The notes under the pieces: model-generated
What the model saw: only the letters and a program-made list of their open reading frames with translations
Databases searched by the model: none
What the model was told of the DNA's origin: nothing
Position numbers and translations under genes: made by a program
Part shown: positions 2,739 through 46,673 of the stretch, in pieces
How positions within the stretch are numbered: the first letter of the stretch is position 1
How the letters are laid out: each line of letters opens with the position of its first letter
Origin: Fidelibacterota bacterium
GTDB lineage: Bacteria; Fidelibacterota; UBA8477; JABMPR01
NCBI GenBank assembly: GCA_024278595.1
Contig: JAJRSW010000093.1
Location: 1-46,835 of the forward strand
DNA length: 46,835 bases
Reading direction: 5' to 3'

Positions 2739-3550
2739 GTCCTTTTAGCGCTACTATTTTAGCCGTAATTCAGGGTCTGACCGAATTTTTACCAGTTTCC
2801 AGCTCAGGTCACCTCGTACTGGGAGAAGCCCTGCTGGGCTCACATGCTTTCGCAAATAGCATCGCATTTGAACTCATTGTGCATCTCGGCACATTTCTAG
2901 CTGTGCTGGTTATCTTCTGGCACGACATCATGAACCTTGCAGCAGTTTTTTTCCCGCGACTTCTCAGACCGCAGTATTGGCAGGTCGAGTATAACACCAA
3001 TGCTGACTTCAAGCTGACCGTGCTGATGATCGTTGGGATGCTTCCGGCCGGAATTGTTGGCTTATTGTTAAGGGATCAGATCAGTGATCTGTTCTCGGAT
3101 CCGGCCATGGTGAGTGTGGCCTTACTGTTTACCGGCGCCATGCTGCTGTCCACTAAATATTATTCAAAAAATGATAGACCCCTCGATCTAAAACGAGCCG
3201 GACTGATCGGTCTGGCCCAGGCTCTGGCCCTGGTCCCCGGTATCTCCCGGTCCGGATCGACCATTACCATGGCTCTGGCCCTGGGTATAAAACAGGAACA
3301 AGCGGCTCGATTTAGTTTTATCATGGTCTTACCTCTCATCGTAGCTGCCACCGTGCTTGAGTTTAAGGATTTACTGGAAGTTGGCATCTCTACCGATCAG
3401 ATTCTGATTCTGAGTATCGGCTTCGTCACATCCTTTATCGTGGGCTTGCTGAGTTTGAAATGGTTGCTTCAACTTCTGAGACAAGGGAAATTCCATTATT
3501 TTGCCTGGTATTGTTTTAGCATCGCATTATGGGGTCTCTTCTACTTCTGA
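2735..3550 (+). CDS. uppP: undecaprenyl-diphosphate phosphatase
   Basis: The product is a 271-residue hydrophobic protein of the BacA/UppP family. It carries both signature motifs: QGLTEFLPVSSSGHL at residues 13-27, and PGISRSGSTI in the second half. It dephosphorylates undecaprenyl diphosphate in the cytoplasmic membrane and so regenerates the lipid carrier for peptidoglycan and for exported glycans such as the one encoded at 9.2-20.9 kb. Length and the multi-helix pattern are typical. The start overlaps the pgeF stop (ATGA). No odd features. Confidence 0.96.
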   Translation: MSPFSATILAVIQGLTEFLPVSSSGHLVLGEALLGSHAFANSIAFELIVHLGTFLAVLVIFWHDIMNLAAVFFPRLLRPQYWQVEYNTNADFKLTVLMIVGMLPAGIVGLLLRDQISDLFSDPAMVSVALLFTGAMLLSTKYYSKNDRPLDLKRAGLIGLAQALALVPGISRSGSTITMALALGIKQEQAARFSFIMVLPLIVAATVLEFKDLLEVGISTDQILILSIGFVTSFIVGLLSLKWLLQLLRQGKFHYFAWYCFSIALWGLFYF

Positions 3551-3551
3551 T

Positions 3552-4562
3552 ATGGCCGCCTATACCCAACAATCCACGGGATACACCCAAATAATTACGG
3601 ACCTGCATCAGGGTAAATTGGCGACCTTCTATTTTGCTAAGGGCTCTGATTTTTACCTGTATCGTCAATTTGTCACTGAACTCAGATCTGCTTTCCGAAG
3701 CCGTTTTGGCGATAATGCAGAATATGTTCAGCGCTGGGGAGTGGATCTGAAAGCTGCCGCTGATGTAAGCTCATTAATTGGGGGCGGGAGCCTTTTCTCC
3801 TCTGCCAGCCTCGTCGTCCTCCATGAAATTCAAGATGCCGGGGTGACGGTAAAAACCAATTTAGCAAAGTTGTTGGAAAAATTAGCTCCAGATACGATTG
3901 TCCTGGCCCACTACTCTGTCAGTGATTACCGGAAGGCAAAATGGTTGACAGCTGTTCAGGATATGGCCCAGGTTGTAGCTCTACATAGCCCCGAAACGAG
4001 AGCCCTGCCTGGTTTTGTGACCAATATGGCCAGCCAATATGGACTGGATCTTGATGAATCAGCTATTTATCGACTCATCGAACTGAGCCGGGGCGAATTG
4101 GCTATCATCGACAATGAATTAGAAAAATTGGCCTTGTTTCTCAACGATCCGGCCCAAACCATCGGACGTGAGTTGGTCAACCAGGTGGCTGGAGCAGTTG
4201 AAAATGCCCAGGTGGGTCAATTCGTGGAAGCCCTTTCGAATCGGGATCGTGAAACAGCCATTCATACCCTGGTTGAGATCCATCATCAAGGTAAGGAAGG
4301 CTTGCCATATCTGGTTGCTGTGCTGTACAATCGCCTGATCCAGCTCATGGCTTTGCGTGAGACACCAGATGCCCGGAAAGCCATTGGCCAGGGGATAACC
4401 TCGTACTATTTTCTTAAAGATCTGCAGTCAGTTTCTGGCAAGTATTCAATGGCTGAGTTACAAAAAGCCACCCGCGAGCTGGCAATTCTAGACCTGCAGT
4501 TTAGATTGGGGTCACTGGATATGTTGGCAGCCTTTTCGAGCTGGGTCTCAAAAGTGGTATAG
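3552..4562 (+). CDS. holA: DNA polymerase III subunit delta
   Basis: The 336-residue product matches HolA in length and layout. An N-terminal AAA+-like part contains FAKGSDFYLYRQFVTELR (the usual GxDxFL region), followed by SLFSSASLVVLHEIQDA and a helical part with the LSRGELAIIDNELEKLALF segment. HolA opens the sliding clamp as part of the clamp-loader complex. I chose the ATG at 3552 rather than an in-frame start at 3501, because the latter would run 50 bases into uppP and adds nonconserved residues. There is no clear ribosome-binding site, so translation may be coupled to uppP, whose stop is one base upstream. Confidence 0.88.
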   Translation: MAAYTQQSTGYTQIITDLHQGKLATFYFAKGSDFYLYRQFVTELRSAFRSRFGDNAEYVQRWGVDLKAAADVSSLIGGGSLFSSASLVVLHEIQDAGVTVKTNLAKLLEKLAPDTIVLAHYSVSDYRKAKWLTAVQDMAQVVALHSPETRALPGFVTNMASQYGLDLDESAIYRLIELSRGELAIIDNELEKLALFLNDPAQTIGRELVNQVAGAVENAQVGQFVEALSNRDRETAIHTLVEIHHQGKEGLPYLVAVLYNRLIQLMALRETPDARKAIGQGITSYYFLKDLQSVSGKYSMAELQKATRELAILDLQFRLGSLDMLAAFSSWVSKVV

Positions 4563-4564
4563 GG

Positions 4565-5134
4565 ATGACTGATAAAAAAACAGATGAACAGTTAATCGCC
4601 GAATTTCAGGGAGGCCAGGAACAGGCTTTTGTGAAATTGGTGGATCGTTATAAAGATCGTTTGATCAATTTTGTTTACCGCTTTCTGAATGATATGACCG
4701 ATGCCGAGGACCTGGTACAGGAAACCTTTCTGAAGGTTTACAAGAATAAACATGCTTATCGCGAGATCGCAAAGTTCTCTACCTGGATATATACGATCGC
4801 AGGAAATCTGGCCCGCTCTGAATTGCGAAAGCGTAAACGGCGCAAGACCTTCACCATGTCACAGTTGTCTTTTGATGACAATGAATTTACACCGGTCGAT
4901 CCGGGCAAAGATACGGAAGGTATTGTTTTTAATACTTATGCCGGTGAGGAGATTATGAAGGCCATTAAAGAGCTGGCTGAGCCTTTTAAAACCATCATTA
5001 TTTTGCGAGATATCCAGGAACTTTCCTACGAAGACATTAGTACAATACTCGACATTCCAATGGGAACTGTCAAATCGCGTGTCAATAGAGCACGTTTGAA
5101 ATTACAGGAAACTTTAAGTTACCTCAGGGAGTAG
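4565..5134 (+). CDS. ECF-type RNA polymerase sigma factor (RpoE-like)
   Basis: The 189-residue protein has the two-domain plan of extracytoplasmic-function sigma-70 factors. Region 2 (about residues 22-90) includes DRYKDRLINFVYRF, DAEDLVQETFLKVY and FSTWIYTIAGNLA for -10 binding and melting. Region 4 (about 125-185) includes LSYEDISTILDIPMGTVKSR, a helix-turn-helix for -35 binding. A linker rich in charged residues joins them. It starts 2 bases after holA. The next gene encodes a matching zinc-type anti-sigma factor, so this is probably an envelope-stress or signal-responsive sigma. Target promoters cannot be read from the window. Confidence 0.93.
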   Translation: MTDKKTDEQLIAEFQGGQEQAFVKLVDRYKDRLINFVYRFLNDMTDAEDLVQETFLKVYKNKHAYREIAKFSTWIYTIAGNLARSELRKRKRRKTFTMSQLSFDDNEFTPVDPGKDTEGIVFNTYAGEEIMKAIKELAEPFKTIIILRDIQELSYEDISTILDIPMGTVKSRVNRARLKLQETLSYLRE

Positions 5135-5186
5135 CCATAGCCAAAATCGCTATCGCAGCAGCAACACACATCAAGGAAGTTTAAAC

Positions 5187-5717
5187 ATGCAGAATAACGA
5201 ATGTATCTATATTTCTGAACAATTTACGAAATACCAGGACAACTCGCTTAGCTCAGAAATACGAGCCCGGATCGATGCCCACCTCACTGTTTGTTCTCCA
5301 TGTCACCAACTTTACCAGGATTTAAATAAAATGCTGGATCAACTCCACAAACTACCCCCCGTATCAAGCAACCAAGACTTTACCTCAAACCTCCTCCATC
5401 ACATCAAAGCAATAAACCAGGAACCTTTCTGGTACAAAATTTATGCTTCCTCTTATACCAGGATCGCTGGATCGGCCATTGCCGCCGGGCTGATTGTTGC
5501 CCTTGGTATGAATATCTGGATTGATCCCATCTCTCCGCGCTCTCCTCAGGGCCAGCGCAATTTTAGCGGGGAACAAAAAGCTCAGACCCACCCCACTGAA
5601 GCCATAACCAGTCAGTTGGACAGTCTGCAGGGCAGCGGTGCCGATACACTGGAACTGAATAACTCTACCATTAACTCAAAAGGCAGTTCATTACAGCTTG
5701 TCAGTGGTACCAAATAA
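5187..5717 (+). CDS. zinc-finger anti-sigma factor, membrane anchored
   Basis: The 176-residue protein has an H32-x3-C36-x2-C39 motif plus Cys6, the ligand pattern of the ZAS (zinc-containing anti-sigma) domain. A single hydrophobic segment (about residues 91-108, IAGSAIAAGLIVALGM) would anchor it in the membrane with a polar C-terminal tail outside. Such proteins hold the partner ECF sigma factor inactive until a signal or proteolysis releases it. It lies 52 bases after the sigma gene, behind AAGGAAG at 5174-5180. The roughly 65-residue extracytoplasmic tail is Ser/Thr/Gln rich and has no domain I recognise. Confidence 0.82.
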   Translation: MQNNECIYISEQFTKYQDNSLSSEIRARIDAHLTVCSPCHQLYQDLNKMLDQLHKLPPVSSNQDFTSNLLHHIKAINQEPFWYKIYASSYTRIAGSAIAAGLIVALGMNIWIDPISPRSPQGQRNFSGEQKAQTHPTEAITSQLDSLQGSGADTLELNNSTINSKGSSLQLVSGTK

Positions 5718-5766
5718 AGTGCATTTCTCCCCAAATAGCCTAAAAATCACCCCGTTATTAATCCTG

Positions 5767-5784
5767 GGAGTATCAGGAGTATCA
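5767..5784 (+). repeat. 9-bp tandem direct repeat
   Basis: Two adjacent copies of GGAGTATCA lie in the 203-base gap between the anti-sigma gene and the GGDEF gene. Nothing else in the gap is convincing: I found no strong promoter or terminator hairpin. The repeat could be a regulator site or chance. Confidence 0.4.
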
Positions 5785-5920
5785 ATTGATTTTGGTCCTC
5801 CTCATCCTTAACTTTAAGTCTATAGCTTAAATCGGCTGAAATGGCGTGTCGTTAAGAATATTCGGGCAGTCATCTCACTGAGTTGAATGCTGGTAAAAGT
5901 GAATAAGGGTGGGTTGGATT

Positions 5921-7435
5921 ATGGCACTAACTGATATCGATCTTGCAAATCTGGAAACAAAACCATTTTTTAAAAGCCAGGTAAATAATCTCATGGAGAT
6001 CCTGGTTTTCTCCTATCCCGATATCAATGTGTATTTTTATGTTCTCGATCCCCATGCAGGTTTTGTCCTTCAAGATCTCCCTACGAACCAAGATCATGTC
6101 TTCGATTCCATCAGGGCTGAAGTTCCGGCCATCGAAGCACTCCATACCCGGGAAACATTCACAAGCGAATTTATTTTAAACCAGGCAAATGCCGCCATTT
6201 TCTCTCGTGATCCCAGTGAACTTTCTGAATATTCCCTGATCTCACCCATGGGTGGTCAGGATGGCTTAGCTGGGTTTCTGCTTACCATCATTCCTATAAG
6301 TCTCGAACGTGAGGACCTGAACCTGAGTCTTTTCGATAAGATTGCCGAAAGTGTTGGCCTGAATTCGATCACATCCAAACTGCTGGAAAAATTTAAGGAA
6401 AGAAGTGACCATCTCTCAGTGATGCTCGAAGTGAATACGCATTTAAATATTGCTGCAACAAAAACTGATTTCTTGTATGAGATCTCTCGATTTGGCAAAT
6501 ACTTCCTGCATTTTGACCGGGCAGTATTGATCCTGCACCCCGAGGATACACCTGAATATTTCATTGTTGATTCCATAGAAGGCGATGAAACTGGTTTGCA
6601 GCAGGGGATGAGTTACCCCCTGTTCAATTCTCTGGTGAGCAGATCCATTTTGACAGGTCAACACTTTGTCTATAAAAAAAGTCATAAAGCTCAGGTGGAA
6701 GGGATCTATCGAACGGGGGACTATCAAGGCTATCTATATGATCAGGTCCTGGTCTTTCCCTTGGCTAAGGTCAAGAATGCACCCGGTGTGCTGGTCCTCG
6801 AATCACTCACAGAATACCCGGTTAAACAGAGTGAGATCGGTATTTTTGAAATGATCAGTCAAAGCCTGGGTGCGGCCCTCACCAGGTTCAGCTTATATGA
6901 ACGCTTGAATAATTATGCCACCATTGATACACTGACCCACTTGTATAACCTACGCGCCCTGAAACAGCGCTTCGAGGAAGAATTGGCCAGAGCGGGTCGG
7001 TACCAGAATTCATTGGTCGTGCTATTTCTTGATTTGGATAAATTCAAATTAGTGAACGACACTTACGGCCACCTTATGGGCGATTTCGTGTTGCGTGAGA
7101 CCTCCCAGATCATTCGCGAATCCATTCGTACCAGTGATATTCCCGGACGATACGGGGGCGAAGAATTTGTTATTATCATGGTGAATACTGATGCTGCAGC
7201 CTGTCTGGCCAGTGCCCGGCGTCTTTGCACCGCAGTGAACGAGCACACTTATGAGATGAATGAGATCAAGGTCCAAAATAAGGTTAGTATCGGTTTGTCA
7301 GAATTCCCCCGAGATGGTGAGACCATGCCGGATTTGATCCAATCCGCAGATGCTGCCATGTATACGGCTAAACGACGAGGTGGCAATCAAGTCGTAAAAT
7401 ATGAAAAAGGAATGGTGCCCAAATCCAGAGTTTAA
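5921..7435 (+). CDS. GAF-GGDEF diguanylate cyclase
   Basis: The 504-residue protein ends in a GGDEF domain (about residues 340-500) with LDLDKFKLVNDTYGH for substrate and metal binding and an active-site GGEEF at 412-416. An RTSD sequence ending five residues before it matches the RxxD inhibitory site, so product feedback by c-di-GMP is likely. Residues about 175-330 look like a GAF sensor domain; residues 1-150 are a further region I cannot name. There are no membrane segments, so it should be cytoplasmic. I chose ATG 5921, with AAGGGTGGG at 5905-5913 as ribosome-binding site, over a GTG at 5909. It stands alone, with gaps on both sides and no effector gene beside it. Confidence 0.93.
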   Translation: MALTDIDLANLETKPFFKSQVNNLMEILVFSYPDINVYFYVLDPHAGFVLQDLPTNQDHVFDSIRAEVPAIEALHTRETFTSEFILNQANAAIFSRDPSELSEYSLISPMGGQDGLAGFLLTIIPISLEREDLNLSLFDKIAESVGLNSITSKLLEKFKERSDHLSVMLEVNTHLNIAATKTDFLYEISRFGKYFLHFDRAVLILHPEDTPEYFIVDSIEGDETGLQQGMSYPLFNSLVSRSILTGQHFVYKKSHKAQVEGIYRTGDYQGYLYDQVLVFPLAKVKNAPGVLVLESLTEYPVKQSEIGIFEMISQSLGAALTRFSLYERLNNYATIDTLTHLYNLRALKQRFEEELARAGRYQNSLVVLFLDLDKFKLVNDTYGHLMGDFVLRETSQIIRESIRTSDIPGRYGGEEFVIIMVNTDAAACLASARRLCTAVNEHTYEMNEIKVQNKVSIGLSEFPRDGETMPDLIQSADAAMYTAKRRGGNQVVKYEKGMVPKSRV

Positions 7436-7542
7436 CACGCATGATACATCACCAGGCCAATGCCGGTCCCTTGATCCAGGAACAACCTGCTGCCAGTCCA
7501 GATAAGTTGAGCAGGCCTTTTTATCCAGCGGGAATTTTGCTT

Positions 7543-7563
7543 TACAGTTCTCGCCGAACTGTA
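7543..7563 (+). other. inverted repeat upstream of TPR gene
   Basis: TACAGTTC and GAACTGTA form a perfect 8-bp inverted repeat around a 5-base loop (TCGCC). It lies in the 210-base gap between the GGDEF gene and the TPR gene. No T-run follows directly, so it is not a standard terminator. Its symmetry would suit a dimeric repressor operator or a leader hairpin. The function is unknown. Confidence 0.45.
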
Positions 7564-7645
7564 CTATCTTTCAAACTGAAATACCATGGAAAATCCCTTC
7601 CAGAACTTATGGATCATCTTGCGGAGGTTGACGTCCACTAGTCAT

Positions 7646-9202
7646 ATGTGTTACAGACAGATCAGATTGATATTTCCGATTATGGCCGTGATTGTTGGCC
7701 TTGGCTCATTGGATGCCCAGGAGACACTTCGCACTTATGACACCCGCGCCATAGATGCATTTATGGATGGCATGGACCTCGAATCAAGTGGGGAAATAGA
7801 ACAGGCTATCATTGCCTATCAAAGAGCCGTTTCATTTGATCCTGGTGCCGCTGATATTCACTTTTCATTAGCCAGGTTGTATTTTCGGCAGGATCAAAAA
7901 GCACTTGCCAAAGCAGCTCTACTTGAAGTTATCAAGCTGCAACCCCACAACTTGAAATCGCTCGAATTACTGGGTGAGATCGCTCAGTCAGAAGGAGAAC
8001 ACAGCCTGGCCTTAAGCTATTTCGATCGGGTTCTGGATGTGGATTATAATAATGACTATGCCGTGCTCCAATCTGCTCAGATTTTTCATGCGCTTGGTGA
8101 TACCATTCGCGAAGCTGAATTTCTGATCCGGCTCTGGGAATTGGATACAGATCGTGTGTCTGCATTACAACGGGCAGAAAACATCTATCTCAATGCCAAC
8201 GATTATCCGCGAATTACCGCACTCTACGATATGCTCATCAAACGCATGCCTACCAAGACTGACCTGGTCGGGCGGCAGATCAGACTATTTCTGGGAATGA
8301 ATCGGTTTTTCGATGCAGAAGCCTTGATGGATTCCCTGATTGAAGTAGCCCCCTATTCCATAGATCTACAGAGTATGAAAACTGATCTGGTGAAAGTAAT
8401 GCACGGTGAAATGGCGGCTGTGGATTATCTCACAGGTGTTCTGGAGAATGATCAAGATTCATGGGAGCTTAAACTGAAACTGAGCCAACTGCTCATTGAT
8501 GCCGGTGAATCAAGTACTGCCCGCAGCATGTTAAAAGAGATCCTGGAAACCCGACCTGAACTATCCAATGCAGTCTCCATGTTGGTTTGGACCTATTTGG
8601 ATGTGGATGATGTGGAAACCGCACGCGACGTACTGGAAAGCTATCTCCCAGCCTTTCCCGATGATTTCTTCCTCCATCGACTGCTGGGCAGTATCTTACA
8701 GAGTATTTCCATCGAGCACGGGGACTCACTTCACTATCAGCAAGCATTGAATGCCATGGAAGCGGCTTTGGATCTCCGTCCTGATGACCAGCAGACCTTG
8801 CACATGATAGCAGGAACACTGGATCTCTTTGGGAAGCGGGAGGAGGTGTTAGAGACCTATCTACACCTGATCGCTCTCGATCCTCAAGATGATCTGGCGC
8901 TGAATAATTATGCTTATTTGCTCACAGAGGGTGAAGTGAGCGAAGATACCCTTCGGCATGCTGCTGAATTTGTGGAACGAGCCTTGATCATAAATCCAGA
9001 TAGCGGTCCTTATCTGGATACCGCGGGGTGGATCTATTTTAAACTGGGTCACGTTCAGCTGGCACGAGAATTTATTGACCGATCCTTAAGTATCAATCCT
9101 GACAATCCTGAGGTTTTAATGCACATGGGGGATGTTTTGGAGTATCTTGGAAAGTCGAATGAAGCCTATATTTACTATATGCGAGCCGGAAAATTACGCT
9201 AA
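7646..9202 (+). CDS. secreted tetratricopeptide-repeat protein
   Basis: The 518-residue protein starts with a probable signal peptide (about residues 1-25, ending SLDAQ) and then contains many TPR units across most of its length, for example the DIHFSLARLYFRQDQKALAK, YAVLQSAQIFHALGDTI and ALNNYAYLLTEG segments. TPR arrays mediate protein contacts, so it is probably a periplasmic or outer-membrane assembly scaffold. An ATG at 7586 would add 20 residues in front of the signal peptide, so I prefer 7646. A GGAGG at 7623-7627 is rather far from this start, which leaves it uncertain. It ends 37 bases before the glycan cluster and may belong to it. No specific partner can be named. Confidence 0.85.
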   Translation: MCYRQIRLIFPIMAVIVGLGSLDAQETLRTYDTRAIDAFMDGMDLESSGEIEQAIIAYQRAVSFDPGAADIHFSLARLYFRQDQKALAKAALLEVIKLQPHNLKSLELLGEIAQSEGEHSLALSYFDRVLDVDYNNDYAVLQSAQIFHALGDTIREAEFLIRLWELDTDRVSALQRAENIYLNANDYPRITALYDMLIKRMPTKTDLVGRQIRLFLGMNRFFDAEALMDSLIEVAPYSIDLQSMKTDLVKVMHGEMAAVDYLTGVLENDQDSWELKLKLSQLLIDAGESSTARSMLKEILETRPELSNAVSMLVWTYLDVDDVETARDVLESYLPAFPDDFFLHRLLGSILQSISIEHGDSLHYQQALNAMEAALDLRPDDQQTLHMIAGTLDLFGKREEVLETYLHLIALDPQDDLALNNYAYLLTEGEVSEDTLRHAAEFVERALIINPDSGPYLDTAGWIYFKLGHVQLAREFIDRSLSINPDNPEVLMHMGDVLEYLGKSNEAYIYYMRAGKLR

Positions 9203-9239
9203 GACACATGAAGAGTTTATATAATATGAGGATGATCCA

Positions 9240-10178
9240 TTGAGCCTGATAAGTGTTGTGGTTCCGCTTTTAAATGAAGCAGAATCTTTAGTAGAACTGC
9301 TATCCCAGATCGATCACTCCCTGGCAGCTTCGCCCCATCAATTTGAGCTCATCTTTATTGATGATGGCTCAACCGATAGATCTCTTGAATTGATTCGAGA
9401 AATGGCCGCGACTGACAACCGGGTAAGGGTGATCAGTTTTCAAAGGAACCATGGTAAAGCGGCCGCCTTGGATGCTGGATTTAAGGCCAGCAAGGGCGAT
9501 TATGTGATTACCATGGATGCTGACCTTCAGGATGATCCCGAAGAAATTCTTCCGCTTATTGCTGTCCTTGAAACAGGCTGGGACATGGTTAGTGGCTGGA
9601 AACAGGTGCGCCATGACCCCATCGGCAAAAGGTGGCCATCAAAATTGTACAACTTTACCGTTGCCAGGCTTTCCGGGATCCCCATCCATGATTTTAATTG
9701 TGGATTGAAAGCCTACACCCGCAAAGTGGTGAAGAATGTGGATCTTTATGGTGAGATGCATCGCTACATTCCGGTTTTGGCAAAGCAGAAAGGCTTTAGC
9801 TGTACTGAAAAAGTGGTCCAGCATCGCGCCCGGAAGTATGGTGCATCAAAATATGGGATCGGCCGGCTATTCACCGGTTATTTGGATCTGTTCACGGTCA
9901 TGTTCCTGGGCAAGTACATGCGTAAGCCTATGCACTTCTTTGGTCTGGCTGGTATGCTGTTGTTTCTCCTGGGTTTTGGAATTCTCGGGTTTTTAACCGT
10001 TCAATGGCTTCAACAATACTTTTTTGGTACGGGTCAATGGATCAACAATCGACCCATGTTTTTCATCGGCATTCTGTTGACCATTATTGGCGGCCAATTT
10101 GTATCCATGGGGCTTTTGGGCGAATTGATCACCAGCTCCCTCCATAAGGAGAATCCCGTCATCCGTGATGACGACTGA
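9240..10178 (+). CDS. family 2 polyprenyl-phosphate glycosyltransferase (GtrB/DPM-like)
   Basis: The 312-residue protein has a GT-A domain with FIDDGSTDRS, DADLQDDPEE (metal and nucleotide-sugar binding), NCGLKAYTRKV and RARKYGASKYG. This pattern is typical of enzymes that move a sugar from a nucleotide to undecaprenyl or dolichyl phosphate. Two C-terminal membrane segments (about 235-257 and 275-297) anchor it. The start is TTG with GAGGA at 9228-9232. A TATAAT at 9220-9225 lies just upstream but lacks a matching -35 and would leave almost no leader. It is the first gene of the glycan cluster and probably primes or decorates the lipid-linked glycan. Confidence 0.9.
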   Translation: MSLISVVVPLLNEAESLVELLSQIDHSLAASPHQFELIFIDDGSTDRSLELIREMAATDNRVRVISFQRNHGKAAALDAGFKASKGDYVITMDADLQDDPEEILPLIAVLETGWDMVSGWKQVRHDPIGKRWPSKLYNFTVARLSGIPIHDFNCGLKAYTRKVVKNVDLYGEMHRYIPVLAKQKGFSCTEKVVQHRARKYGASKYGIGRLFTGYLDLFTVMFLGKYMRKPMHFFGLAGMLLFLLGFGILGFLTVQWLQQYFFGTGQWINNRPMFFIGILLTIIGGQFVSMGLLGELITSSLHKENPVIRDDD

Positions 10179-38834: not shown

Positions 38835-39772
38835 TGACCCAGCCTAAAATAGGATTGGTACTTGGTAGCGGCTCGTCCCGGGGCTGGGCACATATTGGTG
38901 TGATCGAGGCACTGGAAAAACACGGTGTCGAGATCAGCATGATTGCCGGGGCCAGTGCCGGATCATTCATTGCAGCATCTTATGCTGGCGGGGGCTTGGC
39001 TGGTATCAAGAAATTCGCCATGGACATGGATTGGAAGCGGGTGCTTTCGTATCTGGATATTGCCTTTCCCCGGTCTGGCTTTATTGATGGACGTAAAGTC
39101 GCAGAATTGATCCAGAGCTATACCCATGTTAGTCAGTTTGAGGACTTGCATATTCCGGTTCACATGGTAGCCACTGATATGTATAGCGGGGAGCAGGTGA
39201 TCCTTTCACAGGGCAGTCTTACGGATGCTCTGCGGGCAAGTTTAGCTGTTCCGGGTCTGGTAACGCCCATTCTGATCGATGATCATTGGTTAGTAGACGG
39301 CGGCGTGGTAAATCCGTTGCCAGTGGATGTCTGTCAGGCCATGGGAGCTGATATTGTTGTTGCAGTAGATCTCAATTCAGAGCGTTCCGGTAGTCGCAAA
39401 AATGTCCGAAGCAGTTGGAACAAACACGCTGCTGGATTTGAGAAAAAACGTCTGGAAGTGATCTCATCCTGGGTTCAGCGTTATGGTCCGGCCGGCAAGA
39501 CTGTCAGCGCCAAGATCGATCAATGGTTTAGCCGGGAGGAGCCATCACCTCACATCTTCGAAGTTCTTGGTACGTCGATAAATATCATGCAGAAAAAGAT
39601 CGAACAGATGAATCTGGAAACCCATACACCCGATATTCTCATTCGACCGCGTCTGGGCGACTTGAAATTCTTTGATTTTGATATGGCAGAACGGGCTATC
39701 GGTGAGGGGTTTCGTCGAGGAGAAGAGGCTGTTCCTGCGATCCAGGCCCAAATATCAGTGCTCTCAAGCTGA
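38834..39772 (+). CDS. patatin-like phospholipase (RssA/NTE-type)
   Basis: The 312-residue protein has the patatin core: oxyanion loop GSGSSRG at 11-17, nucleophile Ser41 in GASAG at 39-43, and the catalytic Asp155 in DGG. All three sites are intact, so it should be an active serine lipase or lysophospholipase acting at a membrane from the cytosol. No signal peptide is seen. The C-terminal 100 residues are helical and may be regulatory. It overlaps hflX by 1 base. The 205-base gap after it contains TATACT at 39906-39911 as a possible -10 without a good -35. Confidence 0.92.
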   Translation: MTQPKIGLVLGSGSSRGWAHIGVIEALEKHGVEISMIAGASAGSFIAASYAGGGLAGIKKFAMDMDWKRVLSYLDIAFPRSGFIDGRKVAELIQSYTHVSQFEDLHIPVHMVATDMYSGEQVILSQGSLTDALRASLAVPGLVTPILIDDHWLVDGGVVNPLPVDVCQAMGADIVVAVDLNSERSGSRKNVRSSWNKHAAGFEKKRLEVISSWVQRYGPAGKTVSAKIDQWFSREEPSPHIFEVLGTSINIMQKKIEQMNLETHTPDILIRPRLGDLKFFDFDMAERAIGEGFRRGEEAVPAIQAQISVLSS

Positions 39773-39977
39773 TCATCAGCCCAATATGTTCTGGTAGCAG
39801 TGCAGACCCTCAAAAAGTCAGGTTTCGCGCATATTCCCATTCCTCCACAGTCCAACTCTAATAAGCATGTCCACGGACTCAAAATCCCCCTGGATATTCA
39901 AGAATTATACTTTGCAATCAGCTCACTCAGGCACTTTATTTGCACTTGTTGCAGGGGAGTGAACGTGTAAGGAATTG

Positions 39978-41891
39978 ATGTGTCCCATGACCAACGAAAG
40001 TAAGAAAACCACTGCACTTGAGTTGCTGAAAGAACAGTATCCTGAAAAATTTGTTGATGTCCGTCAAGCTCTTAAAAGCTTACATCGTGGTGATCGCATC
40101 TTTGTCCATACGGCCTGTGGAGAACCACAATTCCTGCTAAAATCCCTGGTTGAACACATTGAATCTGATCCCAGAGCGCTATTTGATGCAGAGGTTATCC
40201 AGGTCTGGTCTCTGGGACTGGCACCCTATGCCCAGGAAAAGTTCAAGCACAATTTTCGGCATAATTCTTTTTTTATCGGCAACAGTACCCGGCAAGCGGT
40301 CAATGCCGGTCTGGCCGATTACACACCCATATTTCTATCCGAGATTCCCCGCCTTTTCTCACGGGGACACGTTCCCGTGGATGTGGCCTTAATCCAGGCC
40401 TCCTGTCCGGATCCCCACGGCTACATGAGCTTAGGGGTGAGTGTTGATATTGTCAAAGCGGCTGCTGAAAAAGCGCAAACCATCATTGTGCAGATTAATC
40501 CCCGCATGCCCCGGGTTCATGGAGATGGATTTATACATATATCCGATGTCGATTTTGTCATTCACCATGAAGAACCTCTCCTGGAATACAAAGATGAATT
40601 GGATAATGATATTGCCGATCGCATCGGAAAATATGTTGCTACTCTCATCGAGGATGGCAATACGATCCAAGTGGGTTACGGCTGCCTGCCAAATGCTATC
40701 CTCGCTAATCTGACCCAGAAGAAACACTTGGGGGTTCATACAGAATTACTGGGTGATGGCCTGGTCAAGTTGATGCAAGCGGGTGTGATTGACAATTCCA
40801 GAAAGACCATCAATCGGGGAAAGACCATTGCAACTTTCAGTATGGGCTGTACGGCCACCTATGAATACTTGCATGATAATCCATTCATAGAATTTAAAAC
40901 CGTTGATTATACCAACGATCCGCGGGTCATTGCCCAGCATGACGATATGACGGCTATTAATTCCGCATTGGAGATCGACCTCACCGGTCAGGCCACTGCC
41001 GAGTCATTGGGAAAGGTGTTCTACAGTGGTATCGGGGGTCAGGCAGATTTTATGCGGGGGGCCATTCTGGCGCAGAAGGGCAAGACCATTCTGACCATTC
41101 CCTCCACAGCTGAGGATGGCGAGATCTCCCGGATCGTGCCCTTCCTCAAAGCAGGTGCCGGGGTAACCTTGAACCGTGGAGATGTCCACTATGTGGTCAC
41201 TGAGTATGGGATCGCGTATCTACATGGGAAGAACATCCGGGAGCGGGCCATGGAGCTTATTTCCATCGCCCATCCGAAATTTCGATCTCAGCTGATCCGC
41301 AAAGCTAAAAAACGCAATTTGATCTATCAGGACCAGGCGTTTATAGCTGGAAAAGCAGGGGAGTATCCGGAAGAAGTGGAGACCTACCGCACTACTTCCG
41401 GTGGGCAGGAGATATTCTTGCGGCCGGTTAAGATCAGTGATGAACCTTTGCTAAAAGAATTTTTCTATTCCTTATCAGATGCAAGTCTGCAACGCCGTTT
41501 TATCTCTGAACGAAAAGACATGCCCCATGAAAGGTTACAGGAATTCGTGGTGATTGATTACACTACTGAGGTGATCCTGTTGGCCTTCACCCATGAAGCT
41601 GAGCGGGAGCAATTGGTTGCCTTGGGGCAGTACGCCATTATTGGAGTAACCCATACTGCTGATGTGGCTTTTGTGGTCAGGGATGATCACCAGGAAATGG
41701 GGATCGGACGCGAGTTGTTGCGCTATCTGACCTTGTTGGCCAAGAAACAGGGATTGCTGGGTTTCACCGCTGACGTGATCATCAGCAATTCCAGGATGAT
41801 GCGCCTGTTCGAGAGTATGGGATTTGATGTGCAAAAACATATTTCAGATGGAATATATGAAATGAAAATGACTTTCCTGGAGAGTAAATGA
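39978..41891 (+). CDS. acetyl-CoA hydrolase/CoA-transferase fused to a GNAT acetyltransferase
   Basis: The 637-residue fusion has an N-terminal class I CoA-transferase of the acetyl-CoA hydrolase/4-hydroxybutyrate CoA-transferase family (about residues 15-440). Visible motifs are LGVHTELLGDGLVKLM, which holds the probable catalytic Glu, SGIGGQADFMRGA and VTEYGIAYLHGKNIRERAM. Residues about 475-636 are a GNAT domain with FLRPVKISDEP, SLQRRFISERK and the acetyl-CoA loop HQEMGIGREL, close to GNATs of Pat/YfiQ protein acetyltransferases. It may exchange CoA between acids and also acetylate proteins. ATG 39978 follows AAGGA by 4 bases; ATG 39987 is an alternative. Its stop overlaps the next gene (ATGA). 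Confidence 0.92.
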   Translation: MCPMTNESKKTTALELLKEQYPEKFVDVRQALKSLHRGDRIFVHTACGEPQFLLKSLVEHIESDPRALFDAEVIQVWSLGLAPYAQEKFKHNFRHNSFFIGNSTRQAVNAGLADYTPIFLSEIPRLFSRGHVPVDVALIQASCPDPHGYMSLGVSVDIVKAAAEKAQTIIVQINPRMPRVHGDGFIHISDVDFVIHHEEPLLEYKDELDNDIADRIGKYVATLIEDGNTIQVGYGCLPNAILANLTQKKHLGVHTELLGDGLVKLMQAGVIDNSRKTINRGKTIATFSMGCTATYEYLHDNPFIEFKTVDYTNDPRVIAQHDDMTAINSALEIDLTGQATAESLGKVFYSGIGGQADFMRGAILAQKGKTILTIPSTAEDGEISRIVPFLKAGAGVTLNRGDVHYVVTEYGIAYLHGKNIRERAMELISIAHPKFRSQLIRKAKKRNLIYQDQAFIAGKAGEYPEEVETYRTTSGGQEIFLRPVKISDEPLLKEFFYSLSDASLQRRFISERKDMPHERLQEFVVIDYTTEVILLAFTHEAEREQLVALGQYAIIGVTHTADVAFVVRDDHQEMGIGRELLRYLTLLAKKQGLLGFTADVIISNSRMMRLFESMGFDVQKHISDGIYEMKMTFLESK

Positions 41892-44023
41892 TAGCAAGTA
41901 AACCAGATATTAAACTCCTGTTCGAGCCCCGGTCTGTGGCGGTGATAGGTGTCAGTCAGGAGCCGGGGAAGATCGGTTACAAGATTCTGGAAAATATGAT
42001 CGAGGTGGGGTATCAGGGTCAGATCTATCCTATAAATCCTAGAGGAGGCCAAGCTCTCGGGCTGGATATTTTGAAGCGGATTGAGGATATTGAAGGTGAG
42101 GTCGATGTTGCTGTGATCGCCATTCCAGCCCGCTTTGTTTATGACGCCGTAGTGAGCTGTGCAAAAAAGCAGGTAAAATTCCTGACCATTATCTCTTCAG
42201 GATTTTCAGAGGTTGGCAATCTGGAAGAGGAACAACGCGTTTTGAAATTGGCTCGGGCTAACAATATGCGCATTCTTGGTCCAAATATTTTTGGTCACTA
42301 TTCCGCCAAGGTTGCTTTGAATGCAACTTTTGGTCCCCGGGATATCCGTCCCGGCAATGTGGCGATCATTACTCAAAGCGGTGCCCTGGGGATTGCCATG
42401 ATCGGCAAAACCGCCGTTCAGAATATTGGTCTTTCTTCCATAATCTCGGTGGGGAATAAAACTGATATCAATGAGTCTGATCTGCTTGAATACCTCATCG
42501 ATCAAGCTGAGACCAAGATCATCCTCATTTATGTGGAGGGGATCCAGGAGGGTGAGCGGTTGGTTGCCATGCTCAAACGGGCCACCAAGGTGAAACCGGT
42601 GATCGTGATCAAGTCTGGTCGCTCCAGGCGCGGTGCGGTGGCTGCTGCCAGTCATACTGGCTCTCTGGCAGGTTCGGATAAGGTTTTTGATGCCATTATG
42701 CGCCAATGCGGTGTTTTGCGGGCAGAGAGCATCCAGGAAGCCCTGGAATGGAGTAAATTCCTTTCCCATACTCCGCTCCCACAGGGACGGAATACCATTA
42801 TCATTACCAATGGCGGTGGCGTAGGTGTTATGGCCACAGATGCCTGTGAGAAATATGAAATTAAACTCTATGATGATCAGGAAAAACTGCGGGAAACTTT
42901 CGAAAGTGTGGCCCATGGTTTCGGGTCTACCAAGAACCCGGTCGACATTACCGGAGCAGCTACCAAAGCAGATTATGTAAAAGCACTTAAAGAAGCCCTG
43001 GTGGATGATGATATTCAATCGGTGATTGCGCTCTACTGTGAAACAGCCATGCTGGACTCGCAGGAATTGACTGAGATGATTGATGAAATGTACAGCCAAT
43101 ATCAGGCAATCGGAAAACCGATCACTTTTTCGGTCTTTGGTGGTGAAAAAACAGAAGCTGCCATTACAGTATTACACCAGAACAATGTGCCGGTCTATCG
43201 GGATGTTTATGATGCTGTTTCCTGCCTGGGAGCCCTGCATTTTATTCGTAAGATCCAGGTGCGGGAAGTCGCTCCTCATACTGAGGCGGACATCGATGTG
43301 GATGCTGTAAACCGGCTCATCGATAGTGCTTTGGCCGATGGGCGTAGATTTCTACTGGCTGAAGAGGGTCAGGGAATATTGGCGGCTGCTCAGCTACCAG
43401 GTCCTCAGGGAGGTGTGGTCCATTCAGTTCAGGCAGCCGTAAGCCTGGCTGATGAGATTGGATATCCAGTAGTGATGAAGGTTGTCTCACGAGATATCCT
43501 GCACAAGAGCGATGCCGGGGGCGTGTTACTGGATCTGGACAGCCCTGATGAAGTTGTTGATGGATATCAAACCATCATCTACTCCTGCAAGGCCAATGTA
43601 CCCAATGCCACCATCGATGGTATTGAAGTAGTGGAGCAGATCAAGGCGGGTACAGAAGTGATCCTGGGTGGTCGTCGAGATGCCAATTTTGGACCGACCC
43701 TTATGTTCGGCCTAGGTGGCATTTATGTTGAGGTGATGAAGGATGTGGCCTTTCGGGCCATTCCAATGAGCCAGAACGAACTGCGGACCATGATCAAGGA
43801 AATTCGATCTTATCCCTTATTATTGGGAGTGAGAGGAGAGGCCAGAAAGGACATAGAAAGTATTATCATTGCCCTGGAAAAAGTGTCCGCACTGATCAGC
43901 CTGGTTCCCAGAATAACGGATATTGAGATCAATCCAATGGTGGTTTACCAACAGGGGAGTGGCGCTCGTGCTGTTGATATACGAGTATTATTATCTGACG
44001 ATAAAGAGGATTCAAAATCATGA
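41888..44023 (+). CDS. ADP/NDP-forming acyl-CoA synthetase, fused alpha-beta (Acd type)
   Basis: The 711-residue protein has the order CoA-binding domain (about residues 10-105, SVAVIGVSQEPGKIGYKIL), succinyl-CoA-ligase-like domains with the phospho-His site ASHTGSLAG (His256), and a C-terminal ATP-grasp domain (about 475-705, with GYPVVMKVVSRDILHKSD and MFGLGGIYVEVMKD). It links acyl-CoA cleavage to ATP synthesis, or the reverse, through a phosphohistidine. Unlike the Pat/YfiQ acetyltransferases it has no C-terminal GNAT; that domain is on the upstream gene instead. ATGA overlaps join it to both neighbours, so the three genes form one operon. The acyl substrate is probably acetate. Confidence 0.93.
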   Translation: MIASKPDIKLLFEPRSVAVIGVSQEPGKIGYKILENMIEVGYQGQIYPINPRGGQALGLDILKRIEDIEGEVDVAVIAIPARFVYDAVVSCAKKQVKFLTIISSGFSEVGNLEEEQRVLKLARANNMRILGPNIFGHYSAKVALNATFGPRDIRPGNVAIITQSGALGIAMIGKTAVQNIGLSSIISVGNKTDINESDLLEYLIDQAETKIILIYVEGIQEGERLVAMLKRATKVKPVIVIKSGRSRRGAVAAASHTGSLAGSDKVFDAIMRQCGVLRAESIQEALEWSKFLSHTPLPQGRNTIIITNGGGVGVMATDACEKYEIKLYDDQEKLRETFESVAHGFGSTKNPVDITGAATKADYVKALKEALVDDDIQSVIALYCETAMLDSQELTEMIDEMYSQYQAIGKPITFSVFGGEKTEAAITVLHQNNVPVYRDVYDAVSCLGALHFIRKIQVREVAPHTEADIDVDAVNRLIDSALADGRRFLLAEEGQGILAAAQLPGPQGGVVHSVQAAVSLADEIGYPVVMKVVSRDILHKSDAGGVLLDLDSPDEVVDGYQTIIYSCKANVPNATIDGIEVVEQIKAGTEVILGGRRDANFGPTLMFGLGGIYVEVMKDVAFRAIPMSQNELRTMIKEIRSYPLLLGVRGEARKDIESIIIALEKVSALISLVPRITDIEINPMVVYQQGSGARAVDIRVLLSDDKEDSKS

Positions 44024-45057
44024 AAAATATAATTGTAACTTCCCTGCGAAAAGACGCTGGAAAAACCAGTGTGATCGTAGGTCTGGCCCGGAACTCCTCT
44101 CAGCAGATGGGTTACTTAAAACCTTTTGGAGATCGTCTGCTATACCGTAAAAAACGACTCTGGGATTTTGATGCAGCGGTCTGTACGGTCGCCATGGGTG
44201 CTGAGGAATCACCGGAAGCCATGAGTATCGGATTTGACCATTCTAAATTGCGATTCATGTATGATGCAGATACAACTGCTGAGAAAGTTCGTGAAATAGC
44301 CGCCTTGAATTCAAAAGGCAAAACGGTCATGCTGGTAGAAAGCGGAACCGAGCTTAATCGGGGACTTTCAGTCCACCTTGATGCGCTCTCACTCTGTAAA
44401 TATCTGGATGGTGAATTGTTAGTCGTTTTGAGTGGCACCAACGACCAGATCTGTGATGATGCCTATGCGCTTAAAAGATTACTAGACCAGAGTGATGTAA
44501 AATTAGCCGGGGTTGTGATCAATAAGGTTCGCGATATTGATGATTTTAAAACCGTCTATGGCGAACATTTTGAAGCCCTGGCGCTACCGCTCCTGGGCGT
44601 GGTCCCCTATCTGGAAGATCTTACCAGGCCGACCATGCAGTTTCTGGCCGATCTCTTTTTTGCCAAAGTATTAGCTGGGGATAAAGGCTTGTCAAATACG
44701 ATTAAAAATGTGGTCGTGGGAGCCATGTCTGCCGATGCAGTGCTGAGAGTACAACGCTTTAATAAGGAAGCAAAACTGGTTATAACCAGCGGAGATCGGA
44801 GCGATATGATCCTGGCAGCCCTGGAGACCAAAGCGGCTGGTATCATTCTTACCAATAATATTTTACCACCCCCCAATATTATTGCCAAGGCCTCTGCCAT
44901 GGGCATTCCCTTGCTTTTAGTGGCTCAGGATACCTTCCATGCCGCCCAGAAGGTGGATAACCTGGTCTCTCTTCTGTCTAAGGACGATCAGGAAAAGATG
45001 GGACAGCTACAGCAATTGGTTGGGGAGCATATCAATTACCTGGATGTGATCAAGTAG
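44020..45057 (+). CDS. BioD-like P-loop / DRTGG-domain protein (phosphotransacetylase N-terminal-like)
   Basis: The 345-residue protein has an N-terminal P-loop domain with TSLRKDAGKTSVIVGLA (residues 7-23, Walker A ending AGKTS), similar to BioD and to the N-terminal part of long phosphotransacetylases. Residues about 220-340 match a DRTGG domain (VVVGAMSADAVLRV, VITSGDRSDMILAAL, GIILTNNILPPPNII). The catalytic PTA domain is missing. In Pta proteins these domains are regulatory. In this operon it may control the acyl-CoA synthetase or CoA-transferase in response to a nucleotide or acetyl-CoA. It overlaps the synthetase gene by 4 bases. Confidence 0.85.
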   Translation: MKNIIVTSLRKDAGKTSVIVGLARNSSQQMGYLKPFGDRLLYRKKRLWDFDAAVCTVAMGAEESPEAMSIGFDHSKLRFMYDADTTAEKVREIAALNSKGKTVMLVESGTELNRGLSVHLDALSLCKYLDGELLVVLSGTNDQICDDAYALKRLLDQSDVKLAGVVINKVRDIDDFKTVYGEHFEALALPLLGVVPYLEDLTRPTMQFLADLFFAKVLAGDKGLSNTIKNVVVGAMSADAVLRVQRFNKEAKLVITSGDRSDMILAALETKAAGIILTNNILPPPNIIAKASAMGIPLLLVAQDTFHAAQKVDNLVSLLSKDDQEKMGQLQQLVGEHINYLDVIK

Positions 45058-45109
45058 CCAACGGTACGCCTGATAGGGCCGCACTATACCAGCTAAGGAT
45101 CATCAGCCC

Positions 45110-45133
45110 GATCCGCGTGGATTAATGCGGATC
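45110..45133 (+). other. inverted repeat after the DRTGG gene
   Basis: GATCCGC and GCGGATC form a perfect 7-bp inverted repeat around a 10-base loop, 53 bases after the DRTGG stop codon. No T-run follows, so it is at best a weak or factor-assisted terminator. It lies in the 422-base gap that also holds the promoter at 45186 and the riboswitch at 45256. Confidence 0.45.
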
Positions 45134-45185
45134 TGTGGTCCAAAAATGGATAGGTGACGTGTATGGTCAGGACGCTATTTGTTGG

Positions 45186-45214
45186 TTGCATTCATGCTTC
45201 ACAGACTGTATAAT
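45186..45214 (+). promoter_or_regulatory. promoter for the metB-like gene
   Basis: A perfect -10 TATAAT (45209-45214) is preceded at 17 bases by TTGCAT (45186-45191), which matches the -35 consensus at its first three bases. It lies about 40 bases before the SAM-I aptamer, the right place to transcribe the riboswitch leader. Confidence 0.7.
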
Positions 45215-45255
45215 TCAAACGTTTCAAACCGTTCTTTGGCAATACAGTTTCGGAT

Positions 45256-45356
45256 TTTATCCAGAAAGGTTGAGGGAACAGGCCCGTCGACACCTTAGCA
45301 ACCGGAGAAAACTCACGGTGCTACCTCCTGCCCGATCCAGCATCGGGAAAGATAAG
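45256..45356 (+). promoter_or_regulatory. SAM-I (S-box) riboswitch aptamer
   Basis: The sequence carries the S-box core in order: P1 5' strand TTTATC (45256-45261), the kink-turn region with GAGGGA (45272-45277), the pseudoknot loop GGCCC (45281-45285), TTAGCAACC (45295-45303), P3 formed by ACCG and CGGT, then GGTGCTA, P4 as a perfect CCCGAT/ATCGGG stem (45331-45347), the GAAA-containing joint, and P1 3' strand GATAAG (45351-45356). It binds S-adenosylmethionine and should switch off the downstream metB-like gene. No intrinsic terminator is visible in the 123 bases before the start codon; CGGGAA (45344-45349) could instead pair with TTCCCG (45395-45400). Translational control is therefore possible. 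Confidence 0.94.
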
Positions 45357-45479
45357 AACAGATTTTACTGTATCTGTCATGATCACTGAATTAATTCCCG
45401 TTCCAAAATAATTAAGCCCGCTGGGAGCAGCTTCATTCTGTCCTATATTGGCGATTCCCAAGCTTGAGAGGAGTGTACA

Positions 45480-46673
45480 ATGACCAAATCAAATTTTATT
45501 AAAGATGAATTCACCCAATATCCTGACCATTTCCAGGAAGAGACTGTCATCGTCCATGGCGGTATCACACCCGATCCGACCAACGGGGCCATCATGACGC
45601 CCATTCACCTCACATCCAATTATCATATGGAGCGCATTGGAGAAGACAAGGGCTACGATTATAGCCGTACTGGAAATCCAACCCGATCCGTGCTTCAAAA
45701 GCATCTGGCTCAATTGGAACATGGTAATTACTGTACAACCCTGGCCACTGGCATGGCTGCCGCCACTGCAGTAGCCCACCTGTTCAAACCGGGAGACCAT
45801 CTGATCGTTTCAGAAGATTGTTATGGCGGCGTCTTTCGGCTTTTTAAGGAAGTGATGCAGCCCCTGGGGATTGAAGTGTCATTCATCGACCTGAGAGACC
45901 TGGACACGGTCCGGGATACTATTTCAGACAATACCCGGCTTATCTGGGCTGAATCACCCACCAATCCGCTGTTGCGCCTGGTGGATATTGCTGCTCTGGC
46001 AGGAATAGCTGTAGAAAATGACATTCATGTACTGGTCGATAATACTTTTGCATCACCCATTCTCCAGAAACCGCTGGACCTTGGCGCTCACATCGTACTC
46101 CATTCCTTGACCAAGTACATCAACGGGCACAGTGATGTTCTGGGTGGTGCCCTGATCACCAGGGACGCAGATTTGGCTGAAAGAATTGACTACGTGACCA
46201 ATGCGCTTGGAATCGGTTCATCTCCCTTTGATTCCTGGCTGATCCTGCGCGGCTCAAAAACGCTCAAAGTACGCTATCTGGAACAACAAGCCTCGGCCAT
46301 TAAAGTGGCTGATTTTCTGGCCGGGCATGCCCGGGTTGAACGGGTGATCTATCCCGGTTTGGCTTCACATCCAGATCACAAATTGGCCAGGCTGCAACAA
46401 GCTGGCCCCGGGGCTATGATCGGCTTTGAGGTAAAGGGAGGCAAGGCCGGAGCGCTTGCCACCGTGGAAAATGTAAAGCTGATCACTTTGGCTGAGTCCC
46501 TGGGATGTGTGGCCACTTTGATCGAAGTACCAGCTTTTCAAAGTCATGCGTCCATGACCCCTGAAGCTAGGGCACAGGCCGGTATCAACGATGGGCTGGT
46601 ACGCTTGTCCATCGGGCTGGAAAATGCTGAAGATATCATCCAGGATCTGAGTCAGGCATTTAGTAGTATCTAG
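45480..46673 (+). CDS. metB: cystathionine gamma-synthase-like PLP enzyme
   Basis: The 397-residue protein belongs to the Cys/Met-metabolism PLP family: YDYSRTGNPTR near residue 60, LATGMAAATAV, ESPTNPLLRLVDI, the PLP-binding lysine in HSLTKYINGHSDVLGG, and the C-terminal GLVRLSIGLENAEDI. Members include cystathionine gamma-synthase, beta-lyase and methionine gamma-lyase. Control by a SAM-I riboswitch argues for methionine synthesis, so MetB is my best call. AGGAG at 45469-45473 is the ribosome-binding site. The stop codon TAG is the first three bases of the palindromic element at 46671-46835, so the last residues may differ from the ancestral protein. Confidence 0.88.
   Translation: MTKSNFIKDEFTQYPDHFQEETVIVHGGITPDPTNGAIMTPIHLTSNYHMERIGEDKGYDYSRTGNPTRSVLQKHLAQLEHGNYCTTLATGMAAATAVAHLFKPGDHLIVSEDCYGGVFRLFKEVMQPLGIEVSFIDLRDLDTVRDTISDNTRLIWAESPTNPLLRLVDIAALAGIAVENDIHVLVDNTFASPILQKPLDLGAHIVLHSLTKYINGHSDVLGGALITRDADLAERIDYVTNALGIGSSPFDSWLILRGSKTLKVRYLEQQASAIKVADFLAGHARVERVIYPGLASHPDHKLARLQQAGPGAMIGFEVKGGKAGALATVENVKLITLAESLGCVATLIEVPAFQSHASMTPEARAQAGINDGLVRLSIGLENAEDIIQDLSQAFSSI

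Follow-up and report, generated by a model that had tools for sequence, protein, structure and literature searches.

We describe a three-gene cassette in a 46,835-nucleotide stretch of DNA from a Fidelibacterota bacterium (contig JAJRSW010000093.1; hereafter the window). In order on the + strand at 39978-45057, it encodes a CoA-transferase fused to a GNAT domain (CoAT-GNAT), a single-chain ADP-forming acyl-CoA synthetase (ACD) and a BioD-like protein with a DRTGG domain. The cassette is conserved, and its spread is wider than the sequence alone could show. It apparently unites a Pat-type GNAT, carried on a working CoA-transferase, with an ACD and the ACD's customary DRTGG partner. We propose that it forms a self-contained acyl-CoA/acetate node in which the GNAT would act on the AMP-forming enzyme AcsA and the DRTGG protein would partner the ACD, a model to which we assign a probability of about one half.

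The CoAT-GNAT gene (39978..41891, +) joins a CoA-transferase of the 4-hydroxybutyrate/butyryl-CoA:acetate type to a C-terminal Pat-type GNAT; its stop codon overlaps the ACD start in an ATGA at 41888..41891 (+), and the ACD gene (41888..44023, +) overlaps, in an ATGA at 44020..44023 (+), the start of the gene for a free BioD-like P-loop ATPase with a DRTGG domain and without a phosphotransacetylase domain (44020..45057, +; hereafter the DRTGG gene). The open reading frames (ORFs) were called at 39975-41891, 41888-44023 and 44020-45057 (all +), and CoAT-GNAT residues are numbered from the TTG at 39975; an AAGGA precedes the ATG at 39978, which supports the latter as the start. An earlier reading of this DNA made without database searches (the sequence-only reading) had named the domains of all three proteins, and Pfam searches confirmed every one: AcetylCoA_hydro (19-200), AcetylCoA_hyd_C (291-444) and Acetyltransf_1 (522-617, 5.8e-9) in CoAT-GNAT; CoA_binding_2, Succ_CoA_lig, Ligase_CoA_2 and ATP-grasp_5 in the ACD; and AAA_26 (2-205) and DRTGG (213-313) in the third protein, which had no Pfam match to the PTA_PTB catalytic domain.

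Our sample of the phylum consisted of 120 genomes, 19 from the window's genus, including its own (G000; 3.26 Mb, 94% complete), and 101 others. In 17 of the 19 genus genomes the three genes adjoin one another on the same strand, and in the other two (G061 and G094) the contig ends inside the module. The DRTGG gene is found in all 19, a full-length ACD in 18 with a partial one in the remaining genome, and CoAT-GNAT (at least 594 of 638 residues) lies directly before ACD-DRTGG in 17, with a contig end removing its first 44 residues in G049. Outside the genus, the full set of genes was found in one of the 101 phylum genomes, G096; G111 has CoAT-GNAT with no DRTGG match, G079 and G117 have ACD and DRTGG with no CoAT-GNAT match (the G117 ACD being read in two pieces), and the sole match in G100 is to the GNAT, within a frame of 931 aa that is perhaps a fused Pat. 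In the sister genus and family, as sampled (G003, G009, G020 and G057), the matches were confined to the CoA-transferase part, with none to DRTGG.

The cassette extends well beyond the phylum. We scanned GTDB with a GNAT alignment and kept the best 80 of 199 relatives, so the counts lean to close relatives; the 80 loci comprise 14 that are genus-like (at least 85% identical) and 66 others, and the nearest named relatives at the cassette locus carry the record title Candidatus Neomarinimicrobiota. ACD and DRTGG follow in all 14 genus-like loci, and CoAT-GNAT, ACD and DRTGG occur in that order in 37 of the 66 others, a recurrence that supports the sequence-only reading in seeing an acetate/acyl-CoA unit and shows this unit to be conserved; rare co-occurrence of the three genes, which would have counted against that reading, is not what we observe. 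The same order is seen in L077, where the CoAT side is cut, and in L074, with an 828-bp gap, while L130 and L140 have ACD-DRTGG upstream of CoAT-GNAT instead. Five of the 66 loci reach a contig end after the ACD start; L101 ends 140 bp after the GNAT, with the first 37 residues of an ACD still visible. When ORFs from the 66 loci were clustered, the three cassette members were present in 62, 47 and 44 loci, and the next commonest family in the 8-kb flanks in 15, all of them deltaproteobacterial or Syntrophia bins, with every other family in at most 10.

The records that hold complete cassettes are titled with about eleven groups of bacteria and archaea, marine bacteria among them: Neomarinimicrobiota, WOR-3, Theionarchaea, Thermoplasmata/Methanomassiliicoccales, Dehalococcoidia, Bipolaricaulota, deltaproteobacterial/Syntrophia bins (plus two titled merely proteobacterial), Eisenbacteria, Zixibacteria, Aerophobetes and Spirochaetia; the group names are those of the records, mostly metagenome-assembled genomes (MAGs), in which binning errors are possible. 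Across 32 loci (one genus-like locus among them, L104 and L137 excluded), the three members agree in their pairwise protein distances (r 0.784, 0.827 and 0.862; no value as high in 2000 permutations), which fits travel as a unit, and plain shared descent too. A 57-row tree has 18 changes of phylum label, the minimum possible being 10; support for its deepest branch is low (32/83), and the tree does no more than suggest that the cassette was transferred horizontally. We found no description of this cassette in the open-access literature, as searched mostly by titles and the starts of abstracts. Two individual loci are unusual: in L092, one of the 37, a shortening within the ACD gene (8582-9757) leaves a 392-aa frame, which looks like a stage in the loss of the gene, and L137 has two CoAT-GNAT genes about 4 kb apart (597-2579 and 6648-8591), 34-37% and 59-64% identical to that of the window.

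The GNAT (residues ~470-638) groups with the GNATs of Pat enzymes by sequence and by fold. Its top PDB sequence matches are S. lividans Pat (4nxy, 4u5y), E. coli PatZ (9it0, 9isq) and Pat (4oll, 4ava), and the first GNAT among the best 50 Foldseek rows, at rank 36, is 4u5y (TM 0.92 by target, 27% identity), followed in the listed rows by PatZ and then 4nxy; CoAT-GNAT reaches 55.1 of the 460 bits set as cut-off for the NCBIfam mycobacterial Pat model and thus misses it. The sequence-only reading had made its proposal depend on acetyl-CoA-binding residues in homologues, and these are kept: in a 59-row alignment of the P-loop (QEMGIG in the window), position 573 is Q in 49 rows and H in 10, G576 is present in all 59 and G578 in 56. 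On plasmids (72,556 records), a tblastn search with CoAT-GNAT gave 350 matches, one of which covers at least 80% of the query, and among the 40 listed the alignment stops at query residue 440-501. The GNAT alone matched 126 plasmid records, all below 60% identity; among the 10 listed, four are annotated as acetate--CoA ligase/GNAT fusions.

The transferase part (residues ~1-450, with Glu257) has the fold and the aligned Glu expected of a 4-hydroxybutyrate/butyryl-CoA:acetate CoA-transferase. Its closest solved structures, by sequence and fold, are 4-hydroxybutyrate CoA-transferases, and E257, which is conserved in 58 of the 59 rows, falls opposite AbfT residue 238, a Glu that we take to be catalytic. 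CoAT-GNAT scores 298.8 bits, below the cut-off of 674.8, with the butyryl-CoA:acetate CoA-transferase model TIGR03948. The reading frame of a second, plain CoA-transferase in the window genome (G000:C84:18169-19453, L149) is split in two, with a stop, and the gene is apparently broken or misassembled.

The ACD carries the domain set and the two conserved His residues expected of an ADP-forming acyl-CoA synthetase. In its residues and its relatives it does not resemble the freed synthetase domain of a Pat enzyme that the sequence-only reading's phrase on rearranged Pat/Pta parts would imply: H256, E217 and H539 are kept in all 30 aligned cassette ACDs, whereas E. coli PatZ has a His at the position of 539 and none at that of H256, and the best PDB match, named 4-hydroxybutyrate--CoA ligase, ADP-forming, is well ahead of PatZ. 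Indeed, Pat synthetase domains are described as inactive for want of a catalytic His (PMC8556138). The ACD scores 503.6 bits with the acetate--CoA ligase alpha model TIGR02717, missing the cut-off of 567.15.

The strongest new result is the pairing of free DRTGG genes with ACD genes. In a 148-genome sample of the phylum of a Smithella genome, 67 genomes had a DRTGG match at 1e-15, and in 26 of the best 30 loci (L190-L219) an ACD lies on the same strand within the 1.5-kb flanks of a free DRTGG gene, 24 within 200 bp and two at 1.1-1.2 kb; of the other four, one has an ACD on the opposite strand and three have none, one of them being truncated. Seven of the 30 DRTGG proteins are close to the cassette type; the 1.5-kb flanks reach their ACDs, not a possible CoAT-GNAT ahead of these. 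Many of the weaker matches in this phylum lie in frames of ~700 aa, as expected of long phosphotransacetylase (Pta). Of 115 genomes searched in the phylum of a Theionarchaea genome, 85 had a DRTGG match, mostly weak and partial. Two related Theionarchaea (G123 and G151) each have three full paralogues, which adjoin the cassette ACD, a second ACD (43-44% identical to that of the window) and AcsA; the last of these lies ~105 bp downstream of the AMP-forming AcsA on the same strand (AcsA plus free BioD-DRTGG at 3051-6112 (-) in L181, with domains confirmed by Pfam, and at 3272-6334 (-) in L185). A DRTGG gene also stands beside an ACD in G167, and the match in G165 is near a contig end. Given the pairing in 26 of 30 loci, we argue that free DRTGG proteins serve ACDs. 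As candidate ACD-DRTGG gene fusions, open frames around DRTGG in G403 (1064 aa) and G392 (725 aa) were rejected, the ACD being in another frame.

These neighbours, and the protein itself, also speak against the suggestion that the DRTGG protein is a displaced piece of Pta. Free copies stand beside ACDs in other phyla, and the Walker-A GKT (residues 14-16) is kept in all 46 DRTGG proteins, whereas E. coli Pta reads GLT, with Leu for Lys. Structurally the protein resembles BioD in its N-terminal domain and AF1212 in its DRTGG domain (model pLDDT 86.5, pTM 0.82); AF1212 is presumably adjacent to AF1211 in Archaeoglobus, an adjacency on which a literature look-up showed nothing. The window genome has a separate 329-aa Pta, with a PTA_PTB domain only, next to acetate kinase. 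A short Pta of this kind could be what the DRTGG protein regulates in trans, or the DRTGG protein could stand in for its missing N-terminal part, given that long Pta has AAA and DRTGG domains and that a free AAA-DRTGG gene of Desulfovibrio vulgaris is reported near pta and ack (PMC4481167). We consider this improbable, since free DRTGG genes lie beside ACDs, and also beside AcsA, and since three genomes with DRTGG (G096, G079 and G117) have only weak and partial acetate-kinase matches. Of the description of the cassette as rearranged Pat and Pta parts, the Pat-type GNAT stands; the ACD and the DRTGG protein do not look like freed pieces of Pat or Pta.

The DRTGG protein, with its intact P-loop, may sense a nucleotide as the sequence-only reading proposed; in CBS-pyrophosphatases the DRTGG domain is reported to be important for binding ApnA (PMC7226116). 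In Salmonella Pta, a change in the DRTGG region is reported to raise the response to pyruvate, in an account that calls the function of the domain unknown (PMC12724200), and a free AAA-DRTGG gene with a growth phenotype is listed with no assigned function (PMC10102598). The Salmonella and CBS-pyrophosphatase reports are consistent with an allosteric role for DRTGG without proving one in the cassette. From the repeated gene pairing, we infer that the free BioD/DRTGG protein would be an ATP-binding allosteric partner of the ACD, acting in trans as the same domains would in cis in long Pta.

In the scheme that we propose for the enzymes, the CoA-transferase would take CoA from an acyl-CoA and hand it to acetate; the ACD would then turn the resulting acetyl-CoA, with ADP and Pi, into acetate, ATP and CoA, such that ATP could be obtained from several acyl-CoAs with acetate as shuttle. 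We infer both activities from family knowledge and intact catalytic residues; the ATP-forming direction is likewise presumed. Fusion to the transferase would place the GNAT where acetyl-CoA is made or used. The GNAT would be a lysine acetyltransferase of Pat type, most likely directed at the active-site lysine of AMP-forming AcsA; its action would shut off acetate activation at the expense of ATP for as long as the ATP-yielding route is in use, and a sirtuin would remove the acetyl group. The window genome has an AcsA with the sequence PKTRSGK and a Sir2 protein, and within the genus AcsA exceeds its cut-off in 16 of 19 genomes and a sirtuin is found in 18 of 19. Another sample comprised 44 genomes with a CoAT-GNAT locus (from 44 of the 80, some lacking the full cassette), of which 39 have an AcsA-like protein at 1e-150 (35 over the curated cut-off) and 33 have a sirtuin. 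By contrast, a PatZ query found a synthetase fused to a GNAT in at least four of 45 genomes (G128, G137, the contig-cut G134 and the permuted G159), with none in the window genome among the matches listed; long frames checked in G131, G132, G143, G144 and G154 contained no GNAT, and a search of the window genome with the cassette GNAT at E 0.001 gave no other GNAT matches. Thus, among the matches listed, the CoAT-borne GNAT is in most of these genomes the only fused Pat-type GNAT. The co-occurrence of AcsA and sirtuin and the rarity of fused Pat make AcsA the leading target, although co-occurrence is no proof. The protein in G159 (L221, 1356-3893, -) has the ATP-grasp part first, then the CoA-binding part and then the GNAT, a permuted Pat-like arrangement.

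The sequence-only reading had proposed that the GNAT acetylates the operon's own CoAT moiety or ACD, closing a feedback loop. Fusion of the GNAT to the transferase, an ACD next door in 37 of 66 loci and overlapping genes in the window, which suggest translational coupling, all speak for this. Nonetheless, Pat-type GNATs are described as acting on Acs among others (PMC8556138), 4u5y is, by its title, a complex of S. lividans Pat with the C-terminal domain of Acs, and 19 of 66 loci have no ACD after CoAT-GNAT. We therefore regard the closed loop as somewhat unlikely, and AcsA, encoded elsewhere in the genome, as probably at least as good a candidate for the target as the operon's own enzymes. 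Alternatively, the GNAT could acetylate a small molecule or an unrelated protein, with the transferase merely feeding it acetyl-CoA. The functional breadth of the GNAT superfamily would allow this, as would a substitution at the putative general base (see below), but the top PDB GNATs by sequence and fold are Pat enzymes and we think such a substrate unlikely. Lastly, pathway enzymes are often grouped in operons, and the cassette could be an ordinary metabolic operon held together by shared expression, its proteins having no regulatory interaction; we doubt this to a similar degree, since the GNAT is fused rather than merely adjacent and DRTGG genes pair with different acetyl-CoA-forming enzymes.

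Several observations weigh against the model in which the GNAT acts on AcsA and the DRTGG protein partners the ACD. Thirteen of the 66 loci have CoAT-GNAT with neither partner, and six have DRTGG with no ACD between (one of these, L104, has a 35% identical ACD upstream), indicating that the GNAT is independent of the ACD and that DRTGG does not depend on the ACD alone. The position of PatZ E809, the postulated general base of the GNAT, is Asp563 in the window and its genus (Glu in 44 and Asp in 15 of the 59 rows, the window and 14 others), which would weaken the case for strong GNAT activity in this genus; mutating this Glu is reported to lower, and not abolish, activity (PMC8556138). The AlphaFold model of CoAT-GNAT is good for each domain (pLDDT 84), but the orientation of the domains is uncertain (pTM 0.67). 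AcsA and sirtuin are common without the cassette (51 and 55, respectively, of the 101 phylum genomes outside the genus), and of the 44 genomes with CoAT-GNAT loci, most of them MAGs, five have no strong AcsA and 11 no sirtuin. Moreover, the other genomes were searched for fused Pat only, not for stand-alone or cAMP-type forms. Lineages may also differ in the sign of regulation: in Syntrophus aciditrophicus the main acetate-forming enzyme is reported to be the AMP-forming Acs1, with nine ADP-forming synthetase genes barely expressed (PMC4992975), and in hosts of this kind the Acs curbed by the GNAT could be one that yields ATP.

Upstream of the cassette are a patatin-like gene (210.9 of 272 bits with the RssA model) and a GTPase of HflX-type domain make-up, which we presume to be HflX. 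Downstream, an S-adenosylmethionine (SAM) riboswitch (RF00162, 82 bits; 45254-45358, +) lies ~120 nt before a gene for a pyridoxal phosphate enzyme of the cystathionine gamma-synthase/lyase family (45480-46673). Promoter-like and terminator-like sites in 39600-45600 numbered six and five, compared with shuffle means of 9.3 and 4.8, and were uninformative.

If the model is correct, the cassette represents a new architecture among bacterial protein acetyltransferases, and the DRTGG/BioD domains, a long-standing puzzle, acquire a role outside Pta that can be tested. It would also indicate how acetate-linked ATP formation may be controlled in many uncultured anaerobes that live near the energetic limit. 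A bolder version, which we offer tentatively and hold to be possible rather than probable, is that free BioD-DRTGG ATPases are general ATP-binding allosteric subunits of the enzymes of acetyl-CoA and acetate (ACD, AcsA, CoA-transferase and, when fused, Pta), that the cassette is a mobile self-regulating energy module, and that CoA-transfer flux directly gates lysine acetylation by a new class of protein acetyltransferase in which a working CoA-transferase is the regulatory domain.

Among known systems, acuABC of Bacillus subtilis is similar in encoding a GNAT, AcuA, that acetylates AcsA together with a nucleotide-binding regulator, AcuB, that binds Ap4A; there, however, AcuB belongs to the CBS/ACT proteins and has the deacetylase AcuC as its target, and CoA-transferase, ACD and DRTGG genes are not part of the operon as described (PMC13039410). 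Type I and II Pat/PatZ (YfiQ) share the GNAT family of the cassette, by sequence and fold; plasmid relatives of the cassette GNAT include fused acetate--CoA ligase/GNAT proteins, and the window genome has AcsA and a sirtuin. The cassette GNAT differs in having an apparently active CoA-transferase in place of the synthetase domain, an arrangement absent from the five GNAT types as reviewed in PMC8556138, and the cassette ACD is separate and keeps the His that PatZ lacks. AbfT (3gk7) and the other 4-hydroxybutyrate/butyryl-CoA:acetate CoA-transferases have the fold of the cassette transferase, and AbfT E238 aligns with its E257, but the cassette protein has a C-terminal GNAT extension. The ADP-forming synthetases (4xyl, 8wzu) share the domain set and conserved residues of the cassette ACD, which differs in falling below the cut-offs of named equivalog models and in coming with a DRTGG partner gene. 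In the ASCT/SCS cycle of trypanosomes and hydrogenosomes, a CoA-transferase and an ADP-forming synthetase together make ATP, much as we propose for the cassette pair; this is an analogy only, as the cassette synthetase is of a different family and is accompanied by GNAT and DRTGG parts. Finally, the N-terminal region of class II phosphotransacetylases and D. vulgaris DVU3031 have the AAA/BioD and DRTGG domains of the cassette protein, but the cassette protein itself keeps the Walker-A Lys (Leu in E. coli Pta) and its gene adjoins ACD and CoAT-GNAT rather than Pta-Ack.

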